NCBI GenBank assembly: GCA_017464025.1
Contig: JAFUEI010000001.1
Span: forward strand, 1-64,000
Direction: 5' to 3'
DNA: 64,000 bases
DNA from: Paludibacteraceae bacterium
GTDB lineage: Bacteria > Bacteroidota > Bacteroidia > Bacteroidales > Paludibacteraceae
The notes under the pieces were generated by a model that was not told the origin of the DNA, did no database searches, and saw only the letters and a program-made list of their open reading frames with translations. This document shows positions 4,416 through 39,799 of the stretch, in pieces. The first letter of the stretch is position 1; each line of letters starts with the position of its first letter. Both the position numbers and the translations under genes were made by a program.

Positions 4416-6209
4416 ATGATGAATGTTATGAAGACTTTCGCTAAATACTGTATCCTTCTGCTGCCTGCCCTGCTGGCAGGATGTCAGAGCAGTTTCCTCA
4501 ACCAGGAGCCTTTCGACGAGTTCACCGATGCCGAGTACTGGCGCACCGAAGATCAGGCCCGTACCTTCATGTACGGTTTCTATCCTTCCGTCTTTTCCGG
4601 CTACGGCACCGGCACAGCGCATGGCCCTTTCCTTATGGGGCAGACTCTCAACGACGATTTCTCGTCCGATGTGTCGCAAAACAACCTGCAGCCCGAGGTG
4701 GTGCCGGTAAGCGACGGGGCCTGGAGTTTCACCAATATCCGCAAGGCCAACTATGTGCTGGAGAATATCAACCGCATCGATGCCAACACCGCTACAAAGA
4801 ACCACTGGCGCGGCGTGGCTCGCTTCTTCCGCGCTTGCTATTACAGCAATCTCACCTTCACTTTCGGTGATGTGCCCTGGTACGACCGCGTTCCGCAGAG
4901 CACCGATGAGGCCTATCTCTACAAGGACCGCGACAGCCGCTTCTTTGTCGATTCCTGCATCATGGCCGACTTCACCTATGCCATGGACAGCGTCCGTCAG
5001 GCCGACGGCGACCTGCAGGTCAACAAGTTTGTGGTGGCCGGCATGGCGTCGCGTTTCCTGCTTCGCGAAGGCACCTACCTCAAGTACCACTACGGCAGCA
5101 ATCCCGAGGCGGTGGCTATGGCCGAGAAGTGTCTGCGCTTTGCCAAAGATGCGGCATTGGTGGTCATGAATTCGGGCAAATACAGCATCGCACCCTCTTA
5201 TAATGCCCTCTTCACATCCGACGATTTGGCCGGCAATCCCGAGGTGCTGATGTACCGTCACTATGTGGACGGTGTGCTCGCCCACTCCACGCTCGCCTAT
5301 TCCTACACCGAGACGCAGGCCGGCCTCAGCAAGTCGCTGGCAGAAGCCTTCCTCTGTGCCGACGGGCGCCCCGTCTATGTCAAAGAGGCCTTTTGGACGC
5401 CGCGTACGGCTGAGCAGTTCTTTGCCAACCGCGACCCGCGCCTCAAACTTTGCATCCGTCCCAAGTACTACATCAAAGGCTGCGACTGCCAGCCTTATGC
5501 CTATGCGCTTTCCGGCTTCTCATGGAACAAGTTCATGAACGATGAAGAGGCAGAAAAACTGTTTGCCAACAAGGCGGCCAACCCGCTCTTCAATCGCGAG
5601 AAGAACATCACCGACGCGCCCTGCCTGCGCTATGCCGAAGTGCTGCTCAACTACGTGGAGGCGGCCTACGAACTCAATCAGCTCAATCCGTCCGAACCCT
5701 TTACGCAGACCGATATCGACAAGTCAATCAATCTGATTCGCGACAGGGAAGGTGTAGAGATGCCTCACCTTGGCATGGCCGGCTCCAACCCGACCGTCGG
5801 CGGGGTGGCCTACGACGACCCCAAACGTCTCGAGATTGAGAATGCCGCCAACGGCGAAATCACGTCGTCCCTGCTCTGGGAAATCCGCCGCGAGCGCCGT
5901 GTGGAACTCTGCTTGGAGGGCTTCCGCCTGAACGACCTCAAGCGCTGGGGCAAGCTGGACTACGTATGGAACGGCTGCAACCCCGACATCCGCTTCGGAG
6001 CCTATATCGTGGCGGCCGACTATCCAGGCAAGGCTGACGAGATTGTATTCGAAGACCCTTCTTACACCGAGGGATATATTCTTCGCAACACCCAGAAAGA
6101 GCGTGACCGGCCCGTCGAGCGCAACTATATCAGCCCCGTACCCACCGGACAGATTCAGCTCTACGAAGCTCACGGCTACAAGCTTACCCAGACCAAGGAA
6201 TGGCAATAA
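4416..6209 (+). CDS. SusD/RagB-family surface glycan-binding lipoprotein
   Basis: This 597-aa lipoprotein pairs with the upstream SusC as the ligand-binding lid of the transporter. The N-terminus carries a lipoprotein signal with lipobox LLAGC (Cys about 23). SusD hallmarks include LNQEPFDEFTDAEYW near the N-terminus, YNYVEAAYELNQ-like TPR helices (RYAEVLLNYVEAAYELNQ), IRRERRVELCLEGFRLNDLKRW, and a C-terminal PVPTGQIQLYEAHGYKLTQ. The last of these matches the family's usual end signature. The ligand cannot be predicted from sequence. It is probably co-transcribed with susC (20-bp gap) and the downstream lipoprotein (34-bp gap). Confidence 0.95.
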   Translation: MMNVMKTFAKYCILLLPALLAGCQSSFLNQEPFDEFTDAEYWRTEDQARTFMYGFYPSVFSGYGTGTAHGPFLMGQTLNDDFSSDVSQNNLQPEVVPVSDGAWSFTNIRKANYVLENINRIDANTATKNHWRGVARFFRACYYSNLTFTFGDVPWYDRVPQSTDEAYLYKDRDSRFFVDSCIMADFTYAMDSVRQADGDLQVNKFVVAGMASRFLLREGTYLKYHYGSNPEAVAMAEKCLRFAKDAALVVMNSGKYSIAPSYNALFTSDDLAGNPEVLMYRHYVDGVLAHSTLAYSYTETQAGLSKSLAEAFLCADGRPVYVKEAFWTPRTAEQFFANRDPRLKLCIRPKYYIKGCDCQPYAYALSGFSWNKFMNDEEAEKLFANKAANPLFNREKNITDAPCLRYAEVLLNYVEAAYELNQLNPSEPFTQTDIDKSINLIRDREGVEMPHLGMAGSNPTVGGVAYDDPKRLEIENAANGEITSSLLWEIRRERRVELCLEGFRLNDLKRWGKLDYVWNGCNPDIRFGAYIVAADYPGKADEIVFEDPSYTEGYILRNTQKERDRPVERNYISPVPTGQIQLYEAHGYKLTQTKEWQ

Positions 6210-6243
6210 ACCAATAGTTCAACTCTTTAATTCATAAACCGCA

Positions 6244-8019
6244 ATGAAAAAACTTCTGAAGAATGCCATGCTGCTCACCGCAGCATTCGCGCTGGCAGCC
6301 ACGGGGTGCAACAATAACCCCAATCCTGACAATCCGTCAGGCACCGATTCGGCTGTCAAACTCCGTCAGCTATATATCACCAACGGTGGTATCACTGGCA
6401 CGGAGCGCTACACCGGCACCGTTGATGCCGAACAACTGACCGTGCTGTTCACCGATGTGGCGGCCGAAACCGACCTCACCGCTGTCAAACTCGAGGCTTC
6501 CGCTTCGCGCGGCTCCGAACTGGTGCAGAGCACCGTCAACTTCCTCGAGGGGGCTGCTGCCGATGCTACCGAACTCACGAAGACAATCATGCTGCGCAAC
6601 CCCGACCTCACGACCAACAACGAAGTGACCTATACGGTCACCATCAAGCTCAAAGCCCCCGAGCAGGCTCCCGTGCTTGACAAAATTGTGGTGAAAGATG
6701 CCGATGGCAAAGAAATCACACGCAGCACCGCCAACATCATTGACGGCATCCTGCTCCTCGGTGTAGAGACTTCTACAGCCGAGCTTGTCAGCATCACGCT
6801 CAAGCCCGCCCGTGCCACCTACGAGTTCACTGCCATACAGGACAACATTCTCCAGCAGGCCAACCCCGGTATGCTGAAGCTTGCCTTCATGGGCCTCACC
6901 ACCGAGTATAAGCTCTCCTTCGCCTCTTCGCCGGCTTCGGGTGCCGACTTCTCAAAGGCGAAAGTGCATGCGTGGGATGTCAACACCACGGTCTATACCG
7001 ACCTCGCTGACCAGAACACCCGCGGCGGCGACATGGACGAGAACTACGTTCTCATAGTCAACCGTGCCGGCGATGCAGCCAATCCCTATCTGCTCAGGGT
7101 GGATGACCTGCTCAACGACAACGCGGCAAGCAAAATCCAGCTGGCGGTTCCCGAAGATGTGGTGGCCGGCGGTACGCATATCGTCAGTGCCGGACGTCTC
7201 ACCCAGGGACACATCTATGTCTGCAACCTGCGCACCAATACCGATGAGAAACTTCGCGTTTACCATTGGGCATCGCCTTCCGCACAGCCCGAACTGGTGT
7301 GCGAATGGGACGGCACCACCCAGAGCTTGGAAGAACCCTATGCCGGCCGTATCGGCGACAACATCTCTATCAGTCTCGACGCTTCCGGCAACGGCTATGC
7401 CTATTTCTCGCAGCAGGAAGGTGCCGGCATGGTGTTCCGCTTCACGGTTACCGGATTCTCCACATTCTCCAACCCCGTCATGATTCAGATGCCCGCCGTG
7501 GCCAACTACTACGGTATGTACAACAAAGTCGGCGAGAACGAGTATCTCTTCAAGTCGGTCTTCAACCCCACCATGTGGCTCGTTGATGCCGATGGCAACC
7601 GGCTCTACGAATTCCTCTGGGATGTCAGTCTGAGCAAAGACGGACGCTTCTCCACCGACTTCCGTATCATCGAGTTCAACCGTGCCCGCTATCTGATGGC
7701 TTCCAACGCACGCCGCTTCAAGTACTATGCTCCCGAGGCCGTCAACGTATGGGATATCTCCGAAGGCATGTCCAACGCCGCCGCTCTCAAGGCGATGGAA
7801 GACAACCGTCTGGTTGACCCCGAAAGTGAGGACCCCGAGGACCCCGATTATCTCGACTACGAGCCGGTTTACCACTACGGCTATTCGTCGGGTGAAGAGA
7901 GTGCCGTGGCCGCCTGTGTCGCCCTCTGCGCCACGGTCGTAAAAGATGGCAAACTGCTTATCTGGACGGCTGCTCCCACCGCCGGTATGGCTTTGGTGGA
8001 GATTCCTGCCGCTATGTAA
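6244..8019 (+). CDS. Surface lipoprotein of SusCD locus, possibly DUF5018/DUF4623-like
   Basis: This 591-aa protein has a clear lipoprotein signal (lipobox LAATGC, Cys about 22) followed by an Asn/Pro-rich linker. Two beta-rich modules of roughly 90 residues follow (about 35-125 and 128-215). They resemble the tandem N-terminal Ig-like modules of SusCD-associated DUF5018 proteins. The remaining ~370 residues look propeller-like (DNISISLDASGNGYAYF, NEYLFKSVFNPTMWLVDADG) and recall DUF4623. It is the last gene of the operon and is followed by a good terminator. The likely role is surface glycan binding, inferred only from position and lipidation. Family names are tentative. Confidence 0.7.
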   Translation: MKKLLKNAMLLTAAFALAATGCNNNPNPDNPSGTDSAVKLRQLYITNGGITGTERYTGTVDAEQLTVLFTDVAAETDLTAVKLEASASRGSELVQSTVNFLEGAAADATELTKTIMLRNPDLTTNNEVTYTVTIKLKAPEQAPVLDKIVVKDADGKEITRSTANIIDGILLLGVETSTAELVSITLKPARATYEFTAIQDNILQQANPGMLKLAFMGLTTEYKLSFASSPASGADFSKAKVHAWDVNTTVYTDLADQNTRGGDMDENYVLIVNRAGDAANPYLLRVDDLLNDNAASKIQLAVPEDVVAGGTHIVSAGRLTQGHIYVCNLRTNTDEKLRVYHWASPSAQPELVCEWDGTTQSLEEPYAGRIGDNISISLDASGNGYAYFSQQEGAGMVFRFTVTGFSTFSNPVMIQMPAVANYYGMYNKVGENEYLFKSVFNPTMWLVDADGNRLYEFLWDVSLSKDGRFSTDFRIIEFNRARYLMASNARRFKYYAPEAVNVWDISEGMSNAAALKAMEDNRLVDPESEDPEDPDYLDYEPVYHYGYSSGEESAVAACVALCATVVKDGKLLIWTAAPTAGMALVEIPAAM

Positions 8020-8037
8020 TTGGCTGATTTTATCAAC

Positions 8038-8070
8038 AGCGGGATTCCTCTTGCGGGTCCCGCTGTTTTG
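8038..8070 (+). terminator. Rho-independent terminator of the SusCD operon
   Basis: AGCGGGA (8038-8044) pairs perfectly with TCCCGCT (8058-8064) across a 13-nt loop, followed by GTTTTGTTG. It sits 18 bp after the stop codon at 8019. Confidence 0.75.
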
Positions 8071-8081
8071 TTGTAATTTTG
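8051..8081 (+). promoter_or_regulatory. Bacteroidetes-type promoter for the namZ-symporter operon
   Basis: The -7 element TAATTTTG (8074-8081) lies 20 nt downstream of TTG (8051-8053). The -33 element falls inside the terminator loop and arm of the preceding operon. The predicted transcript starts about 25 nt before the ATG at 8115. Confidence 0.6.
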
Positions 8082-8114
8082 TACCGTAAACAAACCCACC
8101 CTCTCTTTCCTGCC

Positions 8115-9284
8115 ATGAAGCACGCTCTCTCCGTTTTCCTGCTCTCGTTTCTTTGCTCTGTGTCCGTCCTCTGTTGCGGGCGCGATGTCGTTGTCGGTGC
8201 TGCACGGCAGGAGGCATGGCTGCCCCTGTTGCAGGGCAGGCGGGTGGCACTCTTCAGCAACCATACGGGTATCGTGGACGGCAGGCATACGCTCGACCTG
8301 CTTCTTGAAAGCGGCATCACCGTCACCGCCGTCTTCTCCCCCGAACACGGTTTCCGTGGTACGGCCGGAGCAGGCGACCATGTGGACAACTCGGTGGACG
8401 AAAAGACGGGGGTACCCATCCTCTCGCTCTACAACGGTAACTCCGCCCGACCCTCCGACGAGGCCATGCAGCTGTTCGATGTTCTGGTCTGCGACATTCA
8501 GGATGTGGGGCTCCGATTCTACACCTATTACATCTCCATGGTCCGCCTCATGGATGCCTGTGCCGATTTCGGCAAACTCTTCGTCGTCTTCGACCGGCCC
8601 AATCCCAACGGCTGGTATGTGGACGGACCTGTGCTGGATATGCAGTACAAGTCGGGAGTGGGCTGGCTGCCCATACCCGTGGTACATGGCATGACCCTCG
8701 GCGAACTGGCGCTTATGGTCAATGGTGAGGGATGGCTTACCGACGGCAGGCAGTGCCCGCTGCAGGTGGTGCCTTGCAAGCATTATACCCACCGCACCCG
8801 CTACCGGCTCCCCGTGCCGCCGTCACCCAACTTGCAGAACATGCTGGCTGTCTATCTCTATCCTTCCACCTGCTATTTCGAGGCTACGCCCGTATCGCTC
8901 GGCCGCGGCACCGACAAGCCCTTCCTCTGCTACGGCCATCCCAATATGCAGGGCTGCTCCTTCTCCTTCACGCCCCGCAGCATGCAGTCGGCTCCCAAGC
9001 CCCCGCAGCAGGACCGCCTCTGCTATGGGGTGGACCTCAGCACGATGACCGAAGAGGAGGCTATGCAGCACGGGCTCGACCTCACATGGCTGATAGATGC
9101 CTTCCGCAACCTCCACATGGACAACTGGTTCTTCTCGCCTTTCTTTGAGAAACTCATTGGCGTAGGCTATGTCCGCAAGATGATTCTCGAGGGACGCTCC
9201 GCCGAAGAAATCCGCGCCTGCTGGCACGACGATGTAGCCCGCTTCCGCCAACAACGCAAACCTTATTTACTCTATAAAGAATGA
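8115..9284 (+). CDS. namZ: NamZ-type exo-beta-N-acetylmuramidase (DUF1343, GH171)
   Basis: This 389-aa exported protein belongs to the DUF1343 family, whose characterised member NamZ releases N-acetylmuramic acid from the non-reducing end of peptidoglycan fragments. Visible family blocks are VALFSNHTGIVDG, VFSPEHGFRGTAGAGDHV, VCDIQDVGLRFYTYI, FVVFDRPNPNG, PVVHGMTLGELALMVNGE and YLYPSTCYFEATPVSLGRGTDKPF. Residues 1-20 form a signal peptide, so the enzyme acts in the periplasm. ATG at 8115 was chosen because it starts the signal peptide. An in-frame TTG at 8079 lies inside the promoter. The stop overlaps the symporter start by 4 bp, which suggests coupled expression for muropeptide or MurNAc salvage. 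Confidence 0.88.
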   Translation: MKHALSVFLLSFLCSVSVLCCGRDVVVGAARQEAWLPLLQGRRVALFSNHTGIVDGRHTLDLLLESGITVTAVFSPEHGFRGTAGAGDHVDNSVDEKTGVPILSLYNGNSARPSDEAMQLFDVLVCDIQDVGLRFYTYYISMVRLMDACADFGKLFVVFDRPNPNGWYVDGPVLDMQYKSGVGWLPIPVVHGMTLGELALMVNGEGWLTDGRQCPLQVVPCKHYTHRTRYRLPVPPSPNLQNMLAVYLYPSTCYFEATPVSLGRGTDKPFLCYGHPNMQGCSFSFTPRSMQSAPKPPQQDRLCYGVDLSTMTEEEAMQHGLDLTWLIDAFRNLHMDNWFFSPFFEKLIGVGYVRKMILEGRSAEEIRACWHDDVARFRQQRKPYLLYKE

Positions 9285-10735
9285 GTCCTATCGTTATCCT
9301 CCTTACCATTGCGGCCTATTTCGCCGTACTCTTTCTGGTCAGCTGGCTGGCCGGACGTAATGCCGACAATGCAGGCTTCTTCTCGGGCAACCGCCAGAGC
9401 CATTGGGTGCTCGTCATGTTTTCCACTATCGGTGCCGCCATCTCCGGTGTCACCTTCGTCAGCGTCCCCGGCATGGTGCAGGGGGCAGGCTTCAGCTATA
9501 TGCAGATGGTGCTCGGCTTCACTGTCGGCCAGATTATCGTCGCCTACGTCCTCATACCGATGTACTACCGCATGAACCTCACCAGCATCTACCAGTATCT
9601 CGAGTCCCGCTTCGGCATCACCACCTACCGGACCGGAGCCTGGTTCTTCTTTGTGAGCAAGATGCTCGGGGCCAGCGTGCGCCTTTTTGTGGTAGGCAGT
9701 GTGCTGCAGTTACTGGTGTTCGGGCCGTTAGGGGTGCCGTTCTGGGTCAACGCCCTCTTCACGGTCGCTATTGTCTATCTCTGTACCTTCAAGGGGGGCG
9801 TGCGTTCCGTCATCTGGACCGACCTCTTGAAGACGCTCTGTCTCGTCCTTTCCGTGGTTCTCTGCATCGTGTGTGTACTGCGCAGCGGAGTCTCCTTCGA
9901 CGGATTCGGAGCCTCTGAGATGTCAAAGACGTTCTTCTTTGATGATGCGAACGATGGCAAATTTTTCTGGAAGCAGTTCCTCGCAGGCATCTTCCTCGTC
10001 ATTGCCACTACCGGCCTTGACCAGGACCTCATGCAGCGCACCCTCTCTTGCAAGAACTACAAGGATGCGCAGAAGAACATGATCAGTGGGGCCGTCATGC
10101 AGATTTTCGTCATCTTCCTCTTCCTCGTGCTCGGTTGGTTGCTCTACACCTATGCCGCGCAGACCGGCATCAGTCTCGAGGGAATGAAGGGAGACGATGT
10201 GTTTCCCTATCTGGCCACAGGCAAAAATCCGGCTACGGGCAGCATGTTCTTCCCCATGATTGTGGGCATACTCTTCATCGTCGGCTTCATCGCGTCTGCC
10301 TATTCGGCGGCGGGCAGTGCCCTCACGGCGCTCACCACTTCTTTCACCATCGATATCCTTGGTCAGCAGAAGACGGTCCGCACGCGCCAGCTTGTGCACG
10401 CCGGTATGGCGGTGCTGATGGCCGTATGCATCTACGTCATCTGGCTCCTCAACGACGATAGTGTCATCCAGACTGTCTATAAGGTGGCCTCCTATACCTA
10501 CGGCCCCCTGCTCGGCATGTTCTGCTTCGGTATGTTTACGCGTCTGCGGGTGCGCGACCGCTGGATTCCGCTCGTGGCGGTGCTCGCCCCTGTGCTCACA
10601 TGGATCATTGACGCCAACTCCGCCGCATGGTTTGCGGGCTATCAGTTCAGCCATGAGCGCCTGCTGCTCAATGCGCTTCTGGCCTTCCTTGGGATGCTCT
10701 GCCTCGCCCGCCCCGCCGCAAAAGACGGCCAATAG
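9281..10735 (+). CDS. Sodium:solute symporter (SSS family), likely MurNAc/amino-sugar uptake
   Basis: This 484-aa inner-membrane protein has about 13 hydrophobic segments. It carries SSS-family signatures: an N-terminal FFSGNRQSHW block, TFVSVPGMV, RTGAWFFFVSKMLGASVRL, the central GLDQDLMQRTLSCKNYKDAQKNM block, and GFIASAYSAAGSALTALTTSF. The last of these is the family's cation/substrate-site helix. The ATG overlaps the end of the namZ-like gene (ATGA), so the two are translationally coupled. The transporter therefore probably imports the sugar released by that enzyme. The substrate is inferred from context; sialic acid or another sugar cannot be excluded. Confidence 0.85.
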   Translation: MSPIVILLTIAAYFAVLFLVSWLAGRNADNAGFFSGNRQSHWVLVMFSTIGAAISGVTFVSVPGMVQGAGFSYMQMVLGFTVGQIIVAYVLIPMYYRMNLTSIYQYLESRFGITTYRTGAWFFFVSKMLGASVRLFVVGSVLQLLVFGPLGVPFWVNALFTVAIVYLCTFKGGVRSVIWTDLLKTLCLVLSVVLCIVCVLRSGVSFDGFGASEMSKTFFFDDANDGKFFWKQFLAGIFLVIATTGLDQDLMQRTLSCKNYKDAQKNMISGAVMQIFVIFLFLVLGWLLYTYAAQTGISLEGMKGDDVFPYLATGKNPATGSMFFPMIVGILFIVGFIASAYSAAGSALTALTTSFTIDILGQQKTVRTRQLVHAGMAVLMAVCIYVIWLLNDDSVIQTVYKVASYTYGPLLGMFCFGMFTRLRVRDRWIPLVAVLAPVLTWIIDANSAAWFAGYQFSHERLLLNALLAFLGMLCLARPAAKDGQ

Positions 10736-10765
10736 CAGACTCGGAAGCAATCAGATACAAACTGC

Positions 10766-10786
10766 CGGTGGTTTACCGCTTTTTTT
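10766..10786 (+). terminator. Weak hairpin and T-run after the symporter
   Basis: CGGT (10766-10769) and ACCG (10775-10778) form a very short stem followed by a run of seven T (10780-10786). The position suits a terminator, but the stem is weak. The rest of the 269-bp gap to secDF shows nothing except the secDF promoter. Confidence 0.35.
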
Positions 10787-10908
10787 GCAGGGGAGGAGCA
10801 GGTGCCTGTCTGTCCCTTCGCAGGTTCCGTAGAGATGTGGCATTGCTGCGTCTCCCGTCTGTGTGAGGCCGCTTTTTCATGCGTTTGCCCTGAAGATTTA
10901 TTGCGGAA

Positions 10909-10940
10909 TTTGCGTAAATAAATAAAATGTTGTACCTTTG
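10909..10940 (+). promoter_or_regulatory. Promoter of secDF
   Basis: TTTG (10909-10912), a 20-nt spacer, then TACCTTTG (10933-10940) is an exact Bacteroidetes primary-sigma promoter. It leaves a leader of about 57 nt before the ATG at 11005. Confidence 0.8.
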
Positions 10941-11004
10941 CACGCTATTTTGTAAAATTGTGCCTGACAGACAGGAAATATAATAACTAAAAACATAAAC
11001 AAAC

Positions 11005-14000
11005 ATGCAAAACAAAGGACTTGTTAGAATCTTGGCGGTCTGCCTTGCGCTGGTATCCGCCTTTTATCTCTCGTTCTCGTTTGTGACGAGCCACTACAAC
11101 AAGAAGGCTGCCGACTATGCCCAAGGGGACAAGACGATGGAGTACTTCTATCTGGACTCGCTCTCAAGCCAGAAGGTATGGATGGGCTATACGCTCAAAG
11201 AATGCCGTGAGAAAGAAATCAACCTCGGCCTTGACCTGAAGGGCGGTATGAACGTTACCATGGAAGTATCCGTGCCCGATATTCTCCGCGCACTTTCCGG
11301 TTACAACACTACCGAGAACTTCACCCGGGCTATGGAGTTGGCACGTCAGAAGCAGAAGACGAGCCAGACCGACTTCGTGACCCTCTTTATTCAGTCGTTC
11401 AAGGAGATTGACCCGAACGCACAGCTCGCTTCCGTATTCTCCACGTTCGAACTCAAGGACAAAGTGTCCCTCACTTCCACCAACGAAGAAGTGGAGAAGG
11501 TTATCCGCGAGGAAACCGAAGGCGCTATCAACAATTCGTTCAATGTGCTTCGTACACGTATCGACCGCTTCGGTGTCGTACAGCCCAACATCCAGAAGCT
11601 GGACCAGGTGGGACGTATCCTCATTGAGCTTCCGGGCGTGAAAGAGCCCGAGCGCGTGCGCAAACTCCTCCAGGGAACGGCCAACCTTGAGTTTTGGGAG
11701 ACCTACGACCTGCAGGAGATTCTCCCGCAGCTCATGCAGCTCAACCAGCAGCTTGCCACCGTACAGGCCGCTACCGATGAGGCTGCCGAAGAAGCCCCTG
11801 CACAAGAAGTAAAGGCTGAGGAGACCAATTCTATCGACTCGCTGCTCAACGCCGCTGACGAAGATAAGGCCGAAGACCAGAGCGCCGCTCTTGAGAACTA
11901 CCGCAAGCAGAACCCCTTGTTCGCTGTCCTCAACCCCAGTGTTGACCAGAGCGGACGCGCCTACCGCGGCCCCGTGGTAGGTATGGTGGTTTATACCGAT
12001 ACGGCCAAGGTGAACGCTATGCTTGCTTCGCAGCAGGCCAAGGCTATCCTGCCCCGTGACCTCAAGTTCTGCTGGACCGTCAAGCCTATCGACGAGGCCG
12101 AGACGGTTTATCAGCTCGTGGCTCTCAAGCAGGTCAACCGCGACGGACGTGCTTCGCTCGAAGGCGATGTCATTACCGATGCCCGTGCCGACTTCTCGCA
12201 GACCAGCGCTTATGCCAACGTCAGCATGTCGATGAATGCCGAGGGTGCCAAGGCTTGGGCCCGCATCACCCGCGAGAACATCGGCAAGTCCATTGCCATC
12301 GTGCTCGACGGCTATGTATATTCCTTCCCCACCGTACAGAACGAGATTGCCGGTGGCAACTCGCAGATTACGGGTAACTTCACCGTAGAAGAAGCCAAGG
12401 ACTTGGCCAATACCCTCAAATCCGGTAAGATGCCCGCCCCCGCCCGCATCATTCAGGAAGACGTGGTTGGTCCCTCCCTTGGTCAGAAAGCCATTCATGA
12501 CGGTCTGTGGAGCTTTATCATCGGCTTCATCCTGATTCTCGTCTATATGGTGTTCTACTATGGCGTCATTCCCGGTCTGATTGCCGATGCCGCTTTGCTG
12601 TGCAACGTATTCCTGTTGCTCGGTATTCTGGCTTCCTTCGGTGCCGTGCTCACTTTGCCGGGTATCGCCGGTATCGTGCTTACCATGGGTATGGCCGTCG
12701 ATGCCAACGTGCTTATCTACGAGCGTATCCGTGAGGAGATGGCTGCCGGTAAGAACCTCAGGAAGGCTATCAACGACGGCTTTGCCGGTGCCATCAGCGC
12801 CATCATCGATGCCAACGTCACCTCCTTCCTGACAGGTGTCGTTCTGGCTGTCTTTGGTACGGGCCCCATCAAGGGCTTCGCCGTTACCTTCATGATCGGT
12901 ATCGTTTCTTCCGTGCTGACGGCTGTGTTCATCACCCGCCTGCTCCTTGAGGACTATGCCAAGCGTGACGATGCGAAGGATCTGCCCTTCACCACGCCTT
13001 ACATGAAGAACTTCCTCAAGAACACCAGCATCAACTTTGTCGGCATCCGCAAGTGGGCCTACATCATCTCGGGTGTGCTGATTGTCATTGCTCTTCTCGG
13101 TCTTGAACCTCACATCATGGGCAAGCTCAACCTCGGTATCGACTTCTCCGGCGGCCGCAACTACATCGTCCGCTTTGAGCAGCCGGTAAGCACTGAAGAC
13201 GTGAAAGCGGCGCTCGACAACGTGTTCATGGAGAACCTGGAAGAGGGCGAGACCTATTCGCTCAACGTCATCACTATCGGTGACCAGAATCAGGTTCGTA
13301 TCTCCACCAACTACCGTATCCACGACGACAGCGAGAGCATCGACGAGCAGATTGAGGCGCTCATCTATCAGGGTTGCAAGCCCTTCCTGAGCGACAATAT
13401 CTCGGAGACCGACTTCCTCTCCACGCAGGCTAACGAAGAGGTAGGTATCATGCAGAGCCAGAAGGTGGGCCCCTCCATCGCTGACGACATCAAGCAGGCC
13501 GCCGTATGGTCGGTGCTCGGTGCATTGCTCATCATCTTCCTCTACATCTTCATGCGTTTCCGCAACGCTGCCTACTCGGTGGGTGCGCTGGCAGCTCTTG
13601 CCCACGATACGATTATCGTGCTCGGTATGTACGCCCTGCTTTGGAAGATTATGCCTTTCTCCATGGAGATTGACCAGGCCTTCATTGCGGCCATCCTGAC
13701 CATCATCGGTTATTCCGTCAACGATACCGTGGTTGTGTTCGACCGTATCCGTGAATACAATACGCTCTATGCCAAGCGCGACCGTGCGCAGAACATCAAC
13801 GATGCTATCAACGCAACGTTGAGCCGTACGTTCTCCACGTCTATGTCAACCTTCATCGTCTTGCTTGCCATCTTCATCTTCGGCGGTGAGACCATCCGCG
13901 GCTTCGTGTTCGCATTGCTTATCGGTGTGATTGTAGGTACCTATTCGTCGGTTTGCATCGCCACTCCGATTGCCTACGACATCCAGCAGGCTGTTGCACG

Positions 14001-36675: not shown

Positions 36676-37911
36676 TTATTTTATCGTTATGAAATCACTA
36701 TAACGATGAATGTGTGCCACTTGTGTATATTTCCGCATGTGTAGATTTATCTTTTTGTCAAAAAGTACAGGTCTTGCCGGATCAAAATGTAGTACTGCGT
36801 AATACGGTGCATTTTCTGCTGTAAAACCCTTTTCGCGCAGTGCTTCTGCCGTCCATATTTGAAAGCCTTTTTTAGTAAGACCAAATAACTGTGGATGATC
36901 TCCATTGGTATGCAGACAGATATATCCCAAACGCTCAAAACCTTGTTTAACAAGCAAAGAACCCTTGCTGTCGCCAGCACGCAAGTAAGTCATACCTAAT
37001 TGCATTGCAAGCTCACGGTCTTTTTCGCGCATGTGATTGACCAAGATAGTTGCTTCTTGCGCATTCTCACGCATTTTGTCATACAGCCGGTCGCGTGCCT
37101 GTGCGTCTTCTAAGGCTTGTCTGCGGCGTAATGACAAATCTGCAAACTGCGATTCTTGCTCTATACCGATAAACTTGCGTTCAAGCAGATTAGCGGCAAT
37201 GCCGGTAGTAGATGAGCCTGCAAACGGGTCAAGTATGGTGTCGCCCTCGTTTGTTGAAGCAAGAATTATCCTATATAGCAGACGCAAAGGTTTTTGCGTC
37301 GGGTGTTTGCCCTGTAGTTTCTCCCACGAGCCAACCGCCGGAATACGCCATACATCGGTCATTTGCGTACCACCGTTCAACTGCTTCATTGTCTCATAGT
37401 TGAACTTGTGTGTTACTTTTTGACTCTTGCGTGCCCAAATAATCAGTTCCGTGGAGAAGTTGAAATACTTGCACGACAAATTGGGGGGCGGGTCGGTTTT
37501 CTGCCAAGTGATTGTATTGAGCACTTTGTACCCCAATTCTTGCAAGCAGCGCATTACAACATGGATATTATGGTGCGTACCACTAATCCAAATAGTGCCG
37601 TTCTCTTTCAGTTTTGGTCGGCAGAGTTCCAACCAACGGCGGTTGAATTTGTAGATATATTCAGGTGTACCGCCTTTGTCCCACTCGCCTTTATCCACGC
37701 AAACCTGCTTGCCACTTTGTACGCTTATGCCGCCATTACTCAGGAAATAAGGCGGGTCAGCAAAGATAGCATCGACAGAGTTGTCCTCTATCTCTTTCAA
37801 CCGTTCCATGCAATCGCCTTGCAGGATGCGGAAGTCTGGGATTTTACATCCGTAATCAACATGTTTAAAGTGTTCCCATTCTAATGGTAACTCATCATTT
37901 TTAGTAATCAT
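36676..37911 (-). CDS. Beta-class DNA methyltransferase (N6-A or N4-C)
   Basis: This 411-aa SAM-dependent DNA methyltransferase has catalytic motif IV DPPY (about 52-55, FADPPYFLSNGG) ahead of SAM motif I FAGSST (about 230-235, DTILDPFAGSSTTGIAA). HPTQKP (about 203-208) lies just before. The order IV-TRD-X-I defines the beta class. The C-terminal ~130 residues are an extra domain (KGSLLVKQGFERLGYICLHTNGD, AENAPYYAVLHFD) not needed for catalysis. Base composition is AT-rich compared with flanking genes, which indicates transfer. It is probably the modification half of the cassette that includes the nuclease-like gene at 38166. Its ATG sits 5 bp from the end of a 216-bp fold-back sequence. Recognition site unknown. 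Confidence 0.88.
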   Translation of the reverse strand: MITKNDELPLEWEHFKHVDYGCKIPDFRILQGDCMERLKEIEDNSVDAIFADPPYFLSNGGISVQSGKQVCVDKGEWDKGGTPEYIYKFNRRWLELCRPKLKENGTIWISGTHHNIHVVMRCLQELGYKVLNTITWQKTDPPPNLSCKYFNFSTELIIWARKSQKVTHKFNYETMKQLNGGTQMTDVWRIPAVGSWEKLQGKHPTQKPLRLLYRIILASTNEGDTILDPFAGSSTTGIAANLLERKFIGIEQESQFADLSLRRRQALEDAQARDRLYDKMRENAQEATILVNHMREKDRELAMQLGMTYLRAGDSKGSLLVKQGFERLGYICLHTNGDHPQLFGLTKKGFQIWTAEALREKGFTAENAPYYAVLHFDPARPVLFDKKINLHMRKYTQVAHIHRYSDFITIK

Positions 37912-37915
37912 TTGG

Positions 37916-38131
37916 TAGCGTTTGTTATGTTTGCTACCTTGTTACTAAAATTGACTTCCCGCGGGTACAACTGTGAGCAAAGATTTGCTCACGTTGTGGC
38001 CCTCGGAAAGCCAGTAATAAGACAAATCTTGCTCACATGTACACGCAGTGAACATTACGATTTGTTCTTCTTATTACTATACTTTGAAATTTCCGAGGTT
38101 TCAACGTAAATAGAACAAATAGCAAACGCTA
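37916..38131. repeat. 216-bp nested inverted-repeat (fold-back) region
   Basis: Arms pair from the outside in: TAGCGTTTG (37916-37924) with CAAACGCTA (38123-38131); ACGTTG (37991-37996) with CAACGT (38102-38107); CCTCGGAAA (38001-38009) with TTTCCGAGG (38090-38098); GTAATAAG (38014-38021) with CTTATTAC (38070-38077); CAAATC (38023-38028) with GATTTG (38059-38064). A separate 9-bp hairpin GTGAGCAAA-GA-TTTGCTCAC lies at 37973-37992, and TTGCTCAC recurs at 38029. It fills the gap between the nuclease-like gene and the methyltransferase. No protein is encoded. An adjoining palindrome CTAATTA-T-TAATTAG is at 38129-38143. Confidence 0.8.
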
Positions 38132-38165: not shown

Positions 38166-38912
38166 TTATATCACAAATTCAAATTTTTGTTTCTCAAATT
38201 CTTGCTCGTATTGTTTACCAAGCGATTCGTAACTTAAGAATGCGACTCGCTTGTTACTTGCCAATTGTCGAAAAGCCGCGTAACCCATTTTGCTAATAAA
38301 CTCGTGATGCCGTTTCTCGTCTGCCACGATGACCATGCGCGCCGCAAAGTCTTGCAGGTCGTTGAATTTAAGCAGCGAGTTTTGTATGTCCGTCGAGTGC
38401 TCTACCTCAAAGAAAGAGTGAGGCATGTGACGGTCGTTAAACCAAATTACATCAATAGTTGAACTCCTTTTGACCAGTTGAGGAAAAGAGTATTCGGGGA
38501 GTACCTGTATTGTACGCAGGTCGCCTAATTCTGCTTGATTGAGGAACTGCTTATGCTTATCTTGGTCCGGCACAAAAGTGTCTAAATGACGCATTTTGCC
38601 CATTTCTAACAATAGACCTTGATAGTAAGCGTGATTGAATGTCTTTATTGCATCGGAATCTTGGTTGTGCTCATTCTGAACAAGGATGCCATTATTCTCC
38701 AATGCCTGACGATGTGTTTCCAATGCATATAGGCCAGGCTTTATTTTGTATATGCCGACTGTTTGCTGAACTATTCGGCGAACACTTGCAAACGGTGTTT
38801 TCGTACGCCACTGACAGTCGGTAATCTCAAAAATATGCTGATTAATCTGGTTGAGCGTAGCAATGCCGCCCAACATATCAATCGTTTCTATTACCGCTTG
38901 TGCTTGTGTCAT
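38166..38912 (-). CDS. Putative restriction-type nuclease: N-terminal HTH plus PD-(D/E)XK-like domain
   Basis: This 248-aa protein has two parts. Residues about 1-65 look like a winged-helix module (VIETIDMLGGIATLNQINQHIF, then TPFASVRRIVQQTVGIYKIKPGLYAL). Residues about 135-215 fit a PD-(D/E)XK-type nuclease core: STIDVIWFN (Asp154), then a strand FFEVEHSTD (Glu169/Glu171), an ExE variant of the usual ExK, then a helix. The ATG overlaps the aspartic-protease stop by 4 bp, so they are translationally coupled. With the methyltransferase downstream on the same strand, a restriction-modification role is likely. Nuclease activity is inferred from motif only, and the lysine of the classical motif is not seen. 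Confidence 0.7.
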   Translation of the reverse strand: MTQAQAVIETIDMLGGIATLNQINQHIFEITDCQWRTKTPFASVRRIVQQTVGIYKIKPGLYALETHRQALENNGILVQNEHNQDSDAIKTFNHAYYQGLLLEMGKMRHLDTFVPDQDKHKQFLNQAELGDLRTIQVLPEYSFPQLVKRSSTIDVIWFNDRHMPHSFFEVEHSTDIQNSLLKFNDLQDFAARMVIVADEKRHHEFISKMGYAAFRQLASNKRVAFLSYESLGKQYEQEFEKQKFEFVI

Positions 38913-39352
38913 ACTTGAAATCCTTCCGCAGGCATTCGAAAGAAAAATTGCGTCTTATCCTCTTTGGTAGATACACAAAAATCGCCTTCCGTAATTACAT
39001 CCATGCCAATGAGAACATCATAGTCAAAATCGCTGTTCGTTTCATCGCTCATTACTTGCAAATTTGCAATCTTGTAGCCGTTTTGGAAGCACAAGTCTAT
39101 CGTATAAGTATTGACTTCTACGATGCCGCCATAAGCAGAAATAGATGCTTTTCCTGTCGGCTGCAGACCAAGAACCTTGACTATCTCAGGGGAAATAATG
39201 GTATTTGTTGCACCTGTATCCCAAGCTGCATTCTCAATATGACAATACTTGCGATTACCATCTTTATCTTTTACGCCTTCGGGCATAACGACAAAGCAAT
39301 CTGTTATGATTGCGTCTGCACGGAAGTCAAACGCCTTCGTCAAAATGCTCAT
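38909..39352 (-). CDS. Retropepsin-like aspartic protease (clan AA)
   Basis: This 147-aa soluble protein carries the retropepsin signature DTGAT at residues 45-49 (AAWDTGATNTIISPEIVKVLGL). It also carries the matching C-terminal strand DVLIGMDVITEGD (112-124), where family members have LLGMDxL. It is a single-domain protease that would act as a homodimer, each monomer giving one catalytic Asp. No signal peptide is present, so it is cytoplasmic. It overlaps the 49-aa gene upstream and the nuclease-like gene downstream by 4 bp each. Its target is unknown; proteolytic activation of the neighbouring nuclease or a partner is a hypothesis. ATG at 39352 was preferred over a longer frame that overlaps the small gene entirely. 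Confidence 0.8.
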   Translation of the reverse strand: MSILTKAFDFRADAIITDCFVVMPEGVKDKDGNRKYCHIENAAWDTGATNTIISPEIVKVLGLQPTGKASISAYGGIVEVNTYTIDLCFQNGYKIANLQVMSDETNSDFDYDVLIGMDVITEGDFCVSTKEDKTQFFFRMPAEGFQV

Positions 39353-39498
39353 TGCGGCAGAACTTGTGCTTCGATTATACGGGGTTGACGAACTCGTGTG
39401 CTTACAGGACGAAACGAGGTGACACGTGCTACATGGTTTGCAGGCCAAGGCTTAGCCTCAACTGTCAAAGTGATGTTTGGAAAACGAATATCTTTCAT
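39349..39498 (-). CDS. Small 49-aa protein opening the protease-nuclease operon
   Basis: ATG at 39498 starts a 49-codon frame (MKDIRFPNITLTVEAKPWP ... IIEAQVLPQ). Its stop overlaps the aspartic-protease start as ATGA (39352-39349). A consensus promoter ends 21 nt upstream, giving a ~14-nt leader. No family is recognised. The basic Arg-rich second half and the tight coupling support a real gene, such as a regulator, antitoxin-like partner or protease substrate, but function cannot be assigned. Confidence 0.6.
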   Translation of the reverse strand: MKDIRFPNITLTVEAKPWPANHVARVTSFRPVSTRVRQPRIIEAQVLPQ

Positions 39499-39518
39499 AA
39501 TCAATCTTAATTGGGTGG

Positions 39519-39550
39519 CAAAGATACAAATATTTTTTTGTATATGCAAA
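39519..39550 (-). promoter_or_regulatory. Promoter of the protease-nuclease operon
   Basis: On the minus strand TTTG (39550-39547), 20 nt, TATCTTTG (39526-39519), an exact consensus in an AT-rich stretch. Confidence 0.8.
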
Positions 39551-39607: not shown

Positions 39608-39799
39608 TTATACTGCGATTGCCGACTTGATGTTGGAGTGTGTCTGCAACATATAGAAGAGCATTGCTCCTCCGCCGACGAACGGCTCAATGTAAGTGAC
39701 ATTCTCCCATTTGTCAAAGTCAGCGGGAAGCAGGGCTTCCAGTTGGTCAATGAGTTGCGTCTTTCCGCCCACCCATTTGACAAATGGTTTCGCTTTCAT
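39608..39799 (-). pseudogene. Truncated Dam-like (D12 class) adenine methyltransferase
   Basis: Only 63 residues remain: KPFVKWVGGKTQLIDQLEALLP carries the FxGGK SAM motif I of Dam/DpnM-type enzymes, and YIEPFVGGGAMLFYML the next family block. The frame stops right after SAIAV, where intact proteins continue into the INDxN segment. Intact members have about 270-300 residues including the catalytic DPPY, which is absent here. The break lies about 60 bp upstream of the protease-nuclease operon promoter, so insertion of that cassette may have cut the gene. I could not find the missing 3' part on the other side of the cassette. Confidence 0.8.

Follow-up and report, generated by a model that had tools for sequence, protein, structure and literature searches.

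To our knowledge, bacterial single-domain retropepsins have few known roles. Two described proteases, RimB (PMC11957791) and APRc (PMC4140852), are retropepsin-like, as is the one discussed here, but belong to a different setting, and the available portions of both papers mention neither a tiny upstream partner nor a nuclease. GNAT pairs and Zn-protease-Xre pairs are among the mobile two-gene modules covered by Makarova 2009 (PMC2701414); in the available text of that paper, 'aspart' occurs once and 'retro' never. GNAT-type type II toxin-antitoxin systems (PMC9177977, in the sections available) consist of a tiny first gene and a second gene, and are free-standing and mobile. Finally, restriction-modification (R-M) systems of the MboI/DpnII type combine a Dam methyltransferase (MTase), a beta-class MTase and a restriction enzyme (PMC3573125, in the sections available).

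The closest plan is found in PADLOC, whose candidate PDC-M08 consists of two genes, one for a small protein and one for a single-domain retropepsin. An earlier note on this DNA had stated that no system of its composition was described, which needs qualifying since PADLOC-DB lists this candidate. The term PDC-M08 occurred in no paper of the literature searched, bioRxiv preprints being outside its scope, and among the literature matches listed, again with bioRxiv preprints outside the scope, no such module linked a retropepsin with defence, toxin-antitoxin systems or DUF5678.

Here we describe a locus in which a tiny gene and a retropepsin gene precede a candidate nuclease gene, NUC. Component B of PDC-M08 matches the protease, but component A is not matched and the unit is fused to a nuclease gene. 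With MboI/DpnII-type systems the locus shares a beta-class MTase and a Dam remnant, and its relatives show a Dam-nuclease-MTase order and DpnD-like genes; it differs in that NUC lacks PF04556 (it has no Pfam match) and Dam is reduced to a 63-aa stub. The two-gene layout is that of the GNAT-type toxin-antitoxin systems, and a GNAT gene with a tiny partner occupies the same slot at three related loci, but the second gene here encodes a protease and the tiny protein carries no recognised domain. With slightly better than even confidence, we read the locus as a mobile module of tiny protein and retropepsin residing in an exchangeable slot of an R-M locus, toxin-antitoxin-like in nature and not a dedicated regulator of NUC.

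A probable three-gene operon with a retropepsin-like protease and a putative nuclease

The window, that is the whole stretch of DNA analysed, spans 64,000 nucleotides of a Paludibacteraceae genome. Open reading frames (ORFs) confirmed the three overlapping minus-strand genes reported previously: a 49-aa basic protein, partner of the retropepsin (39349..39498), a 147-aa single-domain clan AA (retropepsin-like) aspartic protease without a SEC-C tail (38909..39352) and the 248-aa NUC (38166..38912), which is the element common to the compared loci, a candidate PD-(D/E)XK-like restriction nuclease with, on the earlier note's reading, a helix-turn-helix. ATGA overlaps occur twice, between the 49-aa gene and the protease and between the protease stop and the NUC start. 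The single promoter said to precede the operon was likewise recovered, as TTTG and TATCTTTG separated by 20 nt (39519..39550, minus strand) fit what we take to be the Bacteroidota promoter consensus. The TATCTTTG element ends 20 nt before the first ATG of the 49-aa gene, and a sigma-70 scan gave nothing above chance (7 found vs 9.3 expected). Where measurable, with many pairs saturated, pairwise dN/dS was 0.08-0.31 for the 49-aa protein, 0.03-0.15 for the protease and 0.02-0.08 for the nuclease, and this purifying selection on all three genes rules out chance ORFs. A prophage protease was also rejected, the neighbours scanned being an aldose epimerase, a galactokinase and an AraC-type regulator with no phage gene among them.

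The assignment of the 147-aa protein to clan AA stands, with both WDTGAT (Asp45) and DVLIGMD present. It matches Pfam gag-asp_proteas (PF13975) at 34.4 bits against a cut-off of 28.2 (E 3.4e-8) and PADLOC PDC-M08B (PDLC04405) at E 5.1e-9, and residues W44 D45 T46 G47 A48 T49 and G116 M117 D118 are invariant in 8 aligned sequences. No relatives were found in the viral contigs or the plasmids searched; phage records yielded 5, of which 3 from Leptospira phages, at 34-40% identity. Within 4 kb of the one phage homologue viewed no MTase is annotated, most genes there being 'hypothetical'. The 49-aa protein has no Pfam or NCBIfam match and no recognised domain, an antitoxin DNA-binding domain being among those sought.

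The third protein had been called restriction-nuclease-like, and two observations are in keeping with this. Residues D154, E169, E171 and K182 are invariant in 59 homologues and lie within the best-conserved stretch, a pattern compatible with a PD-(D/E)XK nuclease, and PADLOC REase_II (type II restriction enzyme) gives a weak match (E 4e-6), also seen in 6 of the 7 other homologues scanned. Neither Pfam nor NCBIfam matched NUC, and searches of the PDB returned no credible relative, only chance-like matches to S15.

The R-M context of the nuclease

Downstream of the operon lies, as reported previously, a beta-class N6-adenine MTase of 411 aa (36676..37911, minus strand; PF01555 1.2e-59), which shares 79% identity with its counterpart in the complete Dam-DpnII-MTase operon of another locus (L176). 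Just upstream of the module, on the same strand, a 63-aa N-terminal remnant of a Dam (D12-class) MTase (39608..39799; PF02086 3.1e-10) is the sole D12 match in an assembly of about 89% completeness. Neither this remnant nor the structured RNA described below figured in the earlier note. In relatives, Dam is found directly upstream of NUC, with an overlap of 4 in L088 and a gap of 0 in L074 and L081. The latter two loci have the order Dam - nuclease - DpnD-like cluster - MTase piece (families scanned on L074), presumably the layout of MboI-type systems, and the window locus looks like a derived version of it in which Dam was cut to a stub.

A contig scan with NUC as query returned 74 loci, mostly from Bacteroidota, the closest from Paludibacteraceae of ruminants. 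Neighbours were counted within 5 kb on the same strand with one query per family, several loci being cut by contig ends. Relatives of the beta-class MTase were found at 30 loci and of Dam at 20 (9 nearly full, 11 fragments). Either MTase was present at 37/74 loci and neither query had a relative at the other 37, which leaves room for NUC being something other than an ordinary restriction enzyme. Other neighbours were DpnD-like (13), NYN (3) and GNAT (3), and the protease stood beside NUC at 3 of the 74 named loci, plus the window. Upstream of NUC, Bacteroides clarus carries a SIR2-like protein resembling the ThsA and LmuA models (L071 6485-7936) and Phocaeicola faecium a histidine kinase (L060 6572-7843).

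Unrelated modules occupy the slot before the nuclease

Nine loci, referred to as the window clade, carry a NUC at least 85% identical to that of the window (the window, L047-L052, L057 and L117). Directly before NUC, three of them have a retropepsin (window, L047, L048), three an NYN gene (L049, L050, L117; HEC-09 confirmed for L049 and L050) and three a GNAT gene preceded by a tiny MARPIKETP protein (L051, L052, L057), the GNAT of L057 being shortened to an 87-aa ORF without Pfam match. The six loci with another occupant align with the window at the DNA level over part of Dam, then lose the similarity and regain it at the NUC ATG or a single base ahead of it; an extra 57-base patch in L052 is the one exception. 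Retropepsin and GNAT overlap NUC by ATGA, and NYN ends one base before it.

Fuller Dam sequences also occur in this clade. In L057 a 268-aa Dam lies ahead of the GNAT pair. Between NUC and the MTase, L048 holds a Dam-DpnII pair (9017-11939) and L050 a 676-aa ORF beginning with a D12 domain (9019-11049), and both loci have another Dam 5' piece upstream of NUC; such repeated Dam 5' ends may have served as recombination points.

Relatives of the GNAT gene were found in 68/330 genomes, and 18 of 20 GNAT loci examined have a MARPIK/MAKPIK tiny partner while 3 have NUC. A free-standing GNAT + MARPIKETP module is present in the window's own genome (G000:C33 747-1298, L196), its GNAT 80% identical to that in the slot of L052. 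In another genome (G404), contigs C12 and C33 (L197, L218; L117) both end inside NUC after residue 82, one slot holding GNAT and the other NYN. Since their 246-base NUC pieces agree at only 206 bases, two NUC copies with different slot modules seem to coexist there.

The retropepsin module is mostly found away from the nuclease

A protease match was present in 35/358 genomes of the window's family, and 32 of 39 places were examined besides the window's own. Within flanks of up to 5 kb, complete on both sides at only 19/37 protease loci, 27/32 contained no homologue of NUC, MTase, Dam, NYN or GNAT (one query each). A plain MTase-motif scan of the protease loci added one doubtful 1065-aa ORF (L168). 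Among the remaining five, two are the clade members L047 and L048, L161 carries the stub of Dam together with roughly 25 bases from the NUC start, L175 has a GNAT pair beside the retropepsin, and the fifth is L176. A dedicated pair of protease and nuclease, conserved as such, was rejected for most homologues on the counts of 3/74 NUC loci (plus the window) and 27/32 protease loci within these flanks, and unrelated modules at 6/9 clade loci also argue against it.

What does recur is the small gene in front. A tiny upstream ORF (ATG-started, 40-110 aa) ends at the protease start in 28/28 testable cases, compared with 18/205 other genes, and TANNTTTG is found no more than 90 nt upstream of the small ORF in 27/31 modules, compared with 53/223 other genes and 110/2100 random positions. 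The nuclease-free copy L162 shares with the window only the segment from promoter to protease stop (81% identical, starting about 197 nt ahead of the protease ATG), and this homology sets the extent of the mobile module, comprising promoter, 49-aa gene and protease, at 38909..39549 on the minus strand. The free copies L162 and L163 end in TAA, while nuclease-linked copies have the TGA of ATGA at the same codon. The features of a type II toxin-antitoxin layout that are present are two overlapping genes, a small first gene, an own promoter, free-standing occurrence and mobility. The same genome carries a second, distant retropepsin of 131 aa with an overlapping 60-aa ORF upstream (G000:C26, L003 1314-1800), and L191 and L192 are similar pairs of small ORF and retropepsin.

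The partners vary in sequence: some are DUF5678-like, some resemble the 49-aa protein and others are unrelated at the sequence level, and profile scores for a single family of all tiny partners fell mostly within the range of shuffles. The DUF5678 resemblance of the partner in L037 (E 7e-5) is just under the cut-off. PADLOC gave no match of PDC-M08A, a model of 86 positions, to the 49-aa protein. At E 0.1, PDC-M08A (PDLC04400) was found in none of 5 genomes with close protease copies, this one included, and as the model matched nowhere in that search its absence is unproven; across 22 more genomes the best match (E 9.5e-4) was a 74-aa frame, and the ORFs listed in its surroundings included no retropepsin.

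In a protease tree built without L161 and seven distant or broken rows (L184-L187, L191-L193), the NUC-coupled L053 pairs with the free L163 (support 100/98), and the free L162 falls within the window group. NUC of L053, on the other hand, pairs with NUC of L056 (99/99), which has no module. Protease and nuclease of L053 are both about 75% identical to those of the window, with the linkage kept. The L053/L163 pairing, the free L162 in the window group and the lack of a module in L056 make two couplings the simplest account, and retropepsin and NUC were probably joined on two or more occasions, at the same codon each time. A single gain and subsequent losses would also be possible, given that the inner fork of the window protease group is weakly supported (92/76).

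Retropepsins also precede other R-M genes

In an order-wide sample of 295 genomes, the protease turned up at 5 places in 4 genomes other than the window's own, and at two of the five (L035, L037) an MTase follows the retropepsin on the same strand. In L035, an EcoRI-type MTase lies about 0.3 kb on, followed by a GmrSD-HNH protein that PADLOC identifies as a type II restriction enzyme (REase_II E 3e-136). In L037, a PF01555 MTase lies about 0.5 kb downstream of the retropepsin. Within the family, the complete Dam-DpnII-MTase operon of L176 begins about 0.65 kb after the retropepsin module; PF04556 (DpnII) is present there and in L048. The L035 retropepsin has a SEC-C domain and is accompanied by a small ORF of DUF5678-partner size (whole arrangement 5114-8330, minus strand), and between it and the EcoRI-type MTase a short piece resembles, by eye, the start of the L037 MTase.

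The proposed linkage of protease homologues to nucleases or MTases gave a mixed picture, most loci being unlinked while NUC was probably coupled at least twice and L035, L037 and L176 place retropepsins before R-M or MTase genes. These three loci may point away from purely neutral landing and towards a link of some kind with R-M or defence.

Possible roles of the module

In our preferred reading, the 49-aa protein and the retropepsin would make up a mobile two-gene unit, complete in itself and carrying its own promoter. By insertion or exchange it would have entered a variable slot before NUC, in the former place of Dam in an MboI/DpnII-like R-M locus, with its last codon fused to the NUC start through ATGA. 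NUC would then be transcribed from the module promoter and translated by coupling, and the remaining beta-class MTase would presumably protect host DNA from it. The module's own mode of action is probably that of a toxin-antitoxin or abortive unit, in which the tiny basic first product may restrain a dimeric protease, or be its regulated substrate, and the protease could attack a cell or phage protein once the balance is broken. We prefer a role of toxin-antitoxin or defence type to protease-controlled restriction. Several points sit less easily with the preferred reading, among them the tiny partners' mostly shuffle-level profile scores, the missing PDC-M08A match of the 49-aa protein, the 37/74 NUC loci with no relative of either MTase query and the weak inner fork of the window protease group. 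Two more concern the neighbourhood: a functional link could underlie the two precise ATGA fusions, and retropepsins 0.3-0.7 kb before MTase or R-M genes (L035, L037, L176) are not predicted by simple random landing.

The last two points count in favour of protease-controlled restriction. Here the retropepsin would cleave NUC or a bound inhibitor, such as the 49-aa protein, or guard the R-M system, and infection would switch the response on. Coupling at the same codon, probably at least twice, speaks for it, as do the linkage retained in L053 at about 75% identity in both proteins, the purifying selection on all three genes and the same-strand position of more distant retropepsin modules before R-M or MTase genes (L035, L037, L176). 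We nevertheless consider it quite unlikely, as sister genomes have unrelated modules coupled at this position, 71/74 named NUC loci (some cut by contig ends) yielded no protease and 27/32 family-level protease loci have no R-M or slot homologue in their flanks. Alternatively, though we hold this unlikely, the module may matter to NUC only as a donor of promoter and translation after the loss of Dam, its protease activity being incidental there. Dam is the adjacent upstream gene in relatives (L088, L074, L081), and the ends of three unrelated modules coincide with or adjoin the NUC start; against this, no upstream gene is coupled to NUC in L056 and some other loci, and the protease retains its catalytic motif and a low dN/dS.

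Possible, if doubtful, is an independent anti-phage system on the plan of PDC-M08, with proximity to R-M genes reflecting defence-gene clustering and the tiny protein sensing infection or being cleaved upon it. This would agree with the PDC-M08B match of the protease (E 5e-9), with a PDC-M08A model of only 86 positions, which implies the same plan, with the match of the NYN from the same slot to HEC-09, another PADLOC candidate, and with the R-M genes that follow retropepsin modules in L035, L037 and L176. On the other side, PDC-M08A was found neither in the 49-aa protein nor in the five genomes with close protease copies (a search in which the model matched nowhere, so that absence is unproven), and the modules examined lie mostly among housekeeping- or envelope-looking genes (judged by eye from first residues).

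A broader scenario, offered tentatively and at well below even confidence, is a Bacteroidales MboI-like R-M locus with a coupling slot, where autonomous modules resembling toxin-antitoxin systems (retropepsin + tiny, GNAT + tiny, NYN) would have repeatedly taken the place of Dam, precisely up to the start codon. Restriction would then be expressed from a phage- or stress-sensing module, and the retropepsin unit could be a protease-based toxin-antitoxin system or a guard of the R-M system. Family-wide modules of tiny protein and retropepsin, some standing before R-M genes and, in two lineages, fused to one, provide a directly testable hypothesis for the role of such proteases, and the locus would exemplify how R-M loci take up accessory modules while translation stays coupled.

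A structured RNA between nuclease and methyltransferase

Between NUC and the beta-class MTase lies a 213-nt structured RNA supported by covariation (37918..38130, minus strand; fold z -6.8), which ends 6 nt before the MTase. Its structure was drawn by hand on the window sequence. Two-sided changes occur in 18/49 pairs, and the covariation score was reached by 0/500 shuffles, while the count of pair types was unexceptional (103/500 shuffles). The helices ACGUUG/CAACGU and CCUCGG/CCGAGG are paired in all 11 aligned sequences and show two-sided changes. Rfam held no credible match. A model search was positive in 4/4 genomes searched, with 17 places at E up to 0.1; the four best (bits >140) are at MTase or R-M genes and were among the model-building sequences, and weaker copies precede diverse genes. 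Further copies include L244 5530-5727 (minus strand) in the same genome, L176 2631-2833 (minus strand) and L243 2664-2875, and the element precedes Dam in both L048 and L176 (weaker match, E 4e-6). A new leader or a dispersed RNA family is possible. On contig C34 of the same genome, the RNA is flanked on one side by a YhcG-type nuclease (PF06250, 1e-46) and on the other by a type IIG restriction enzyme-methyltransferase (PADLOC, 3e-291).
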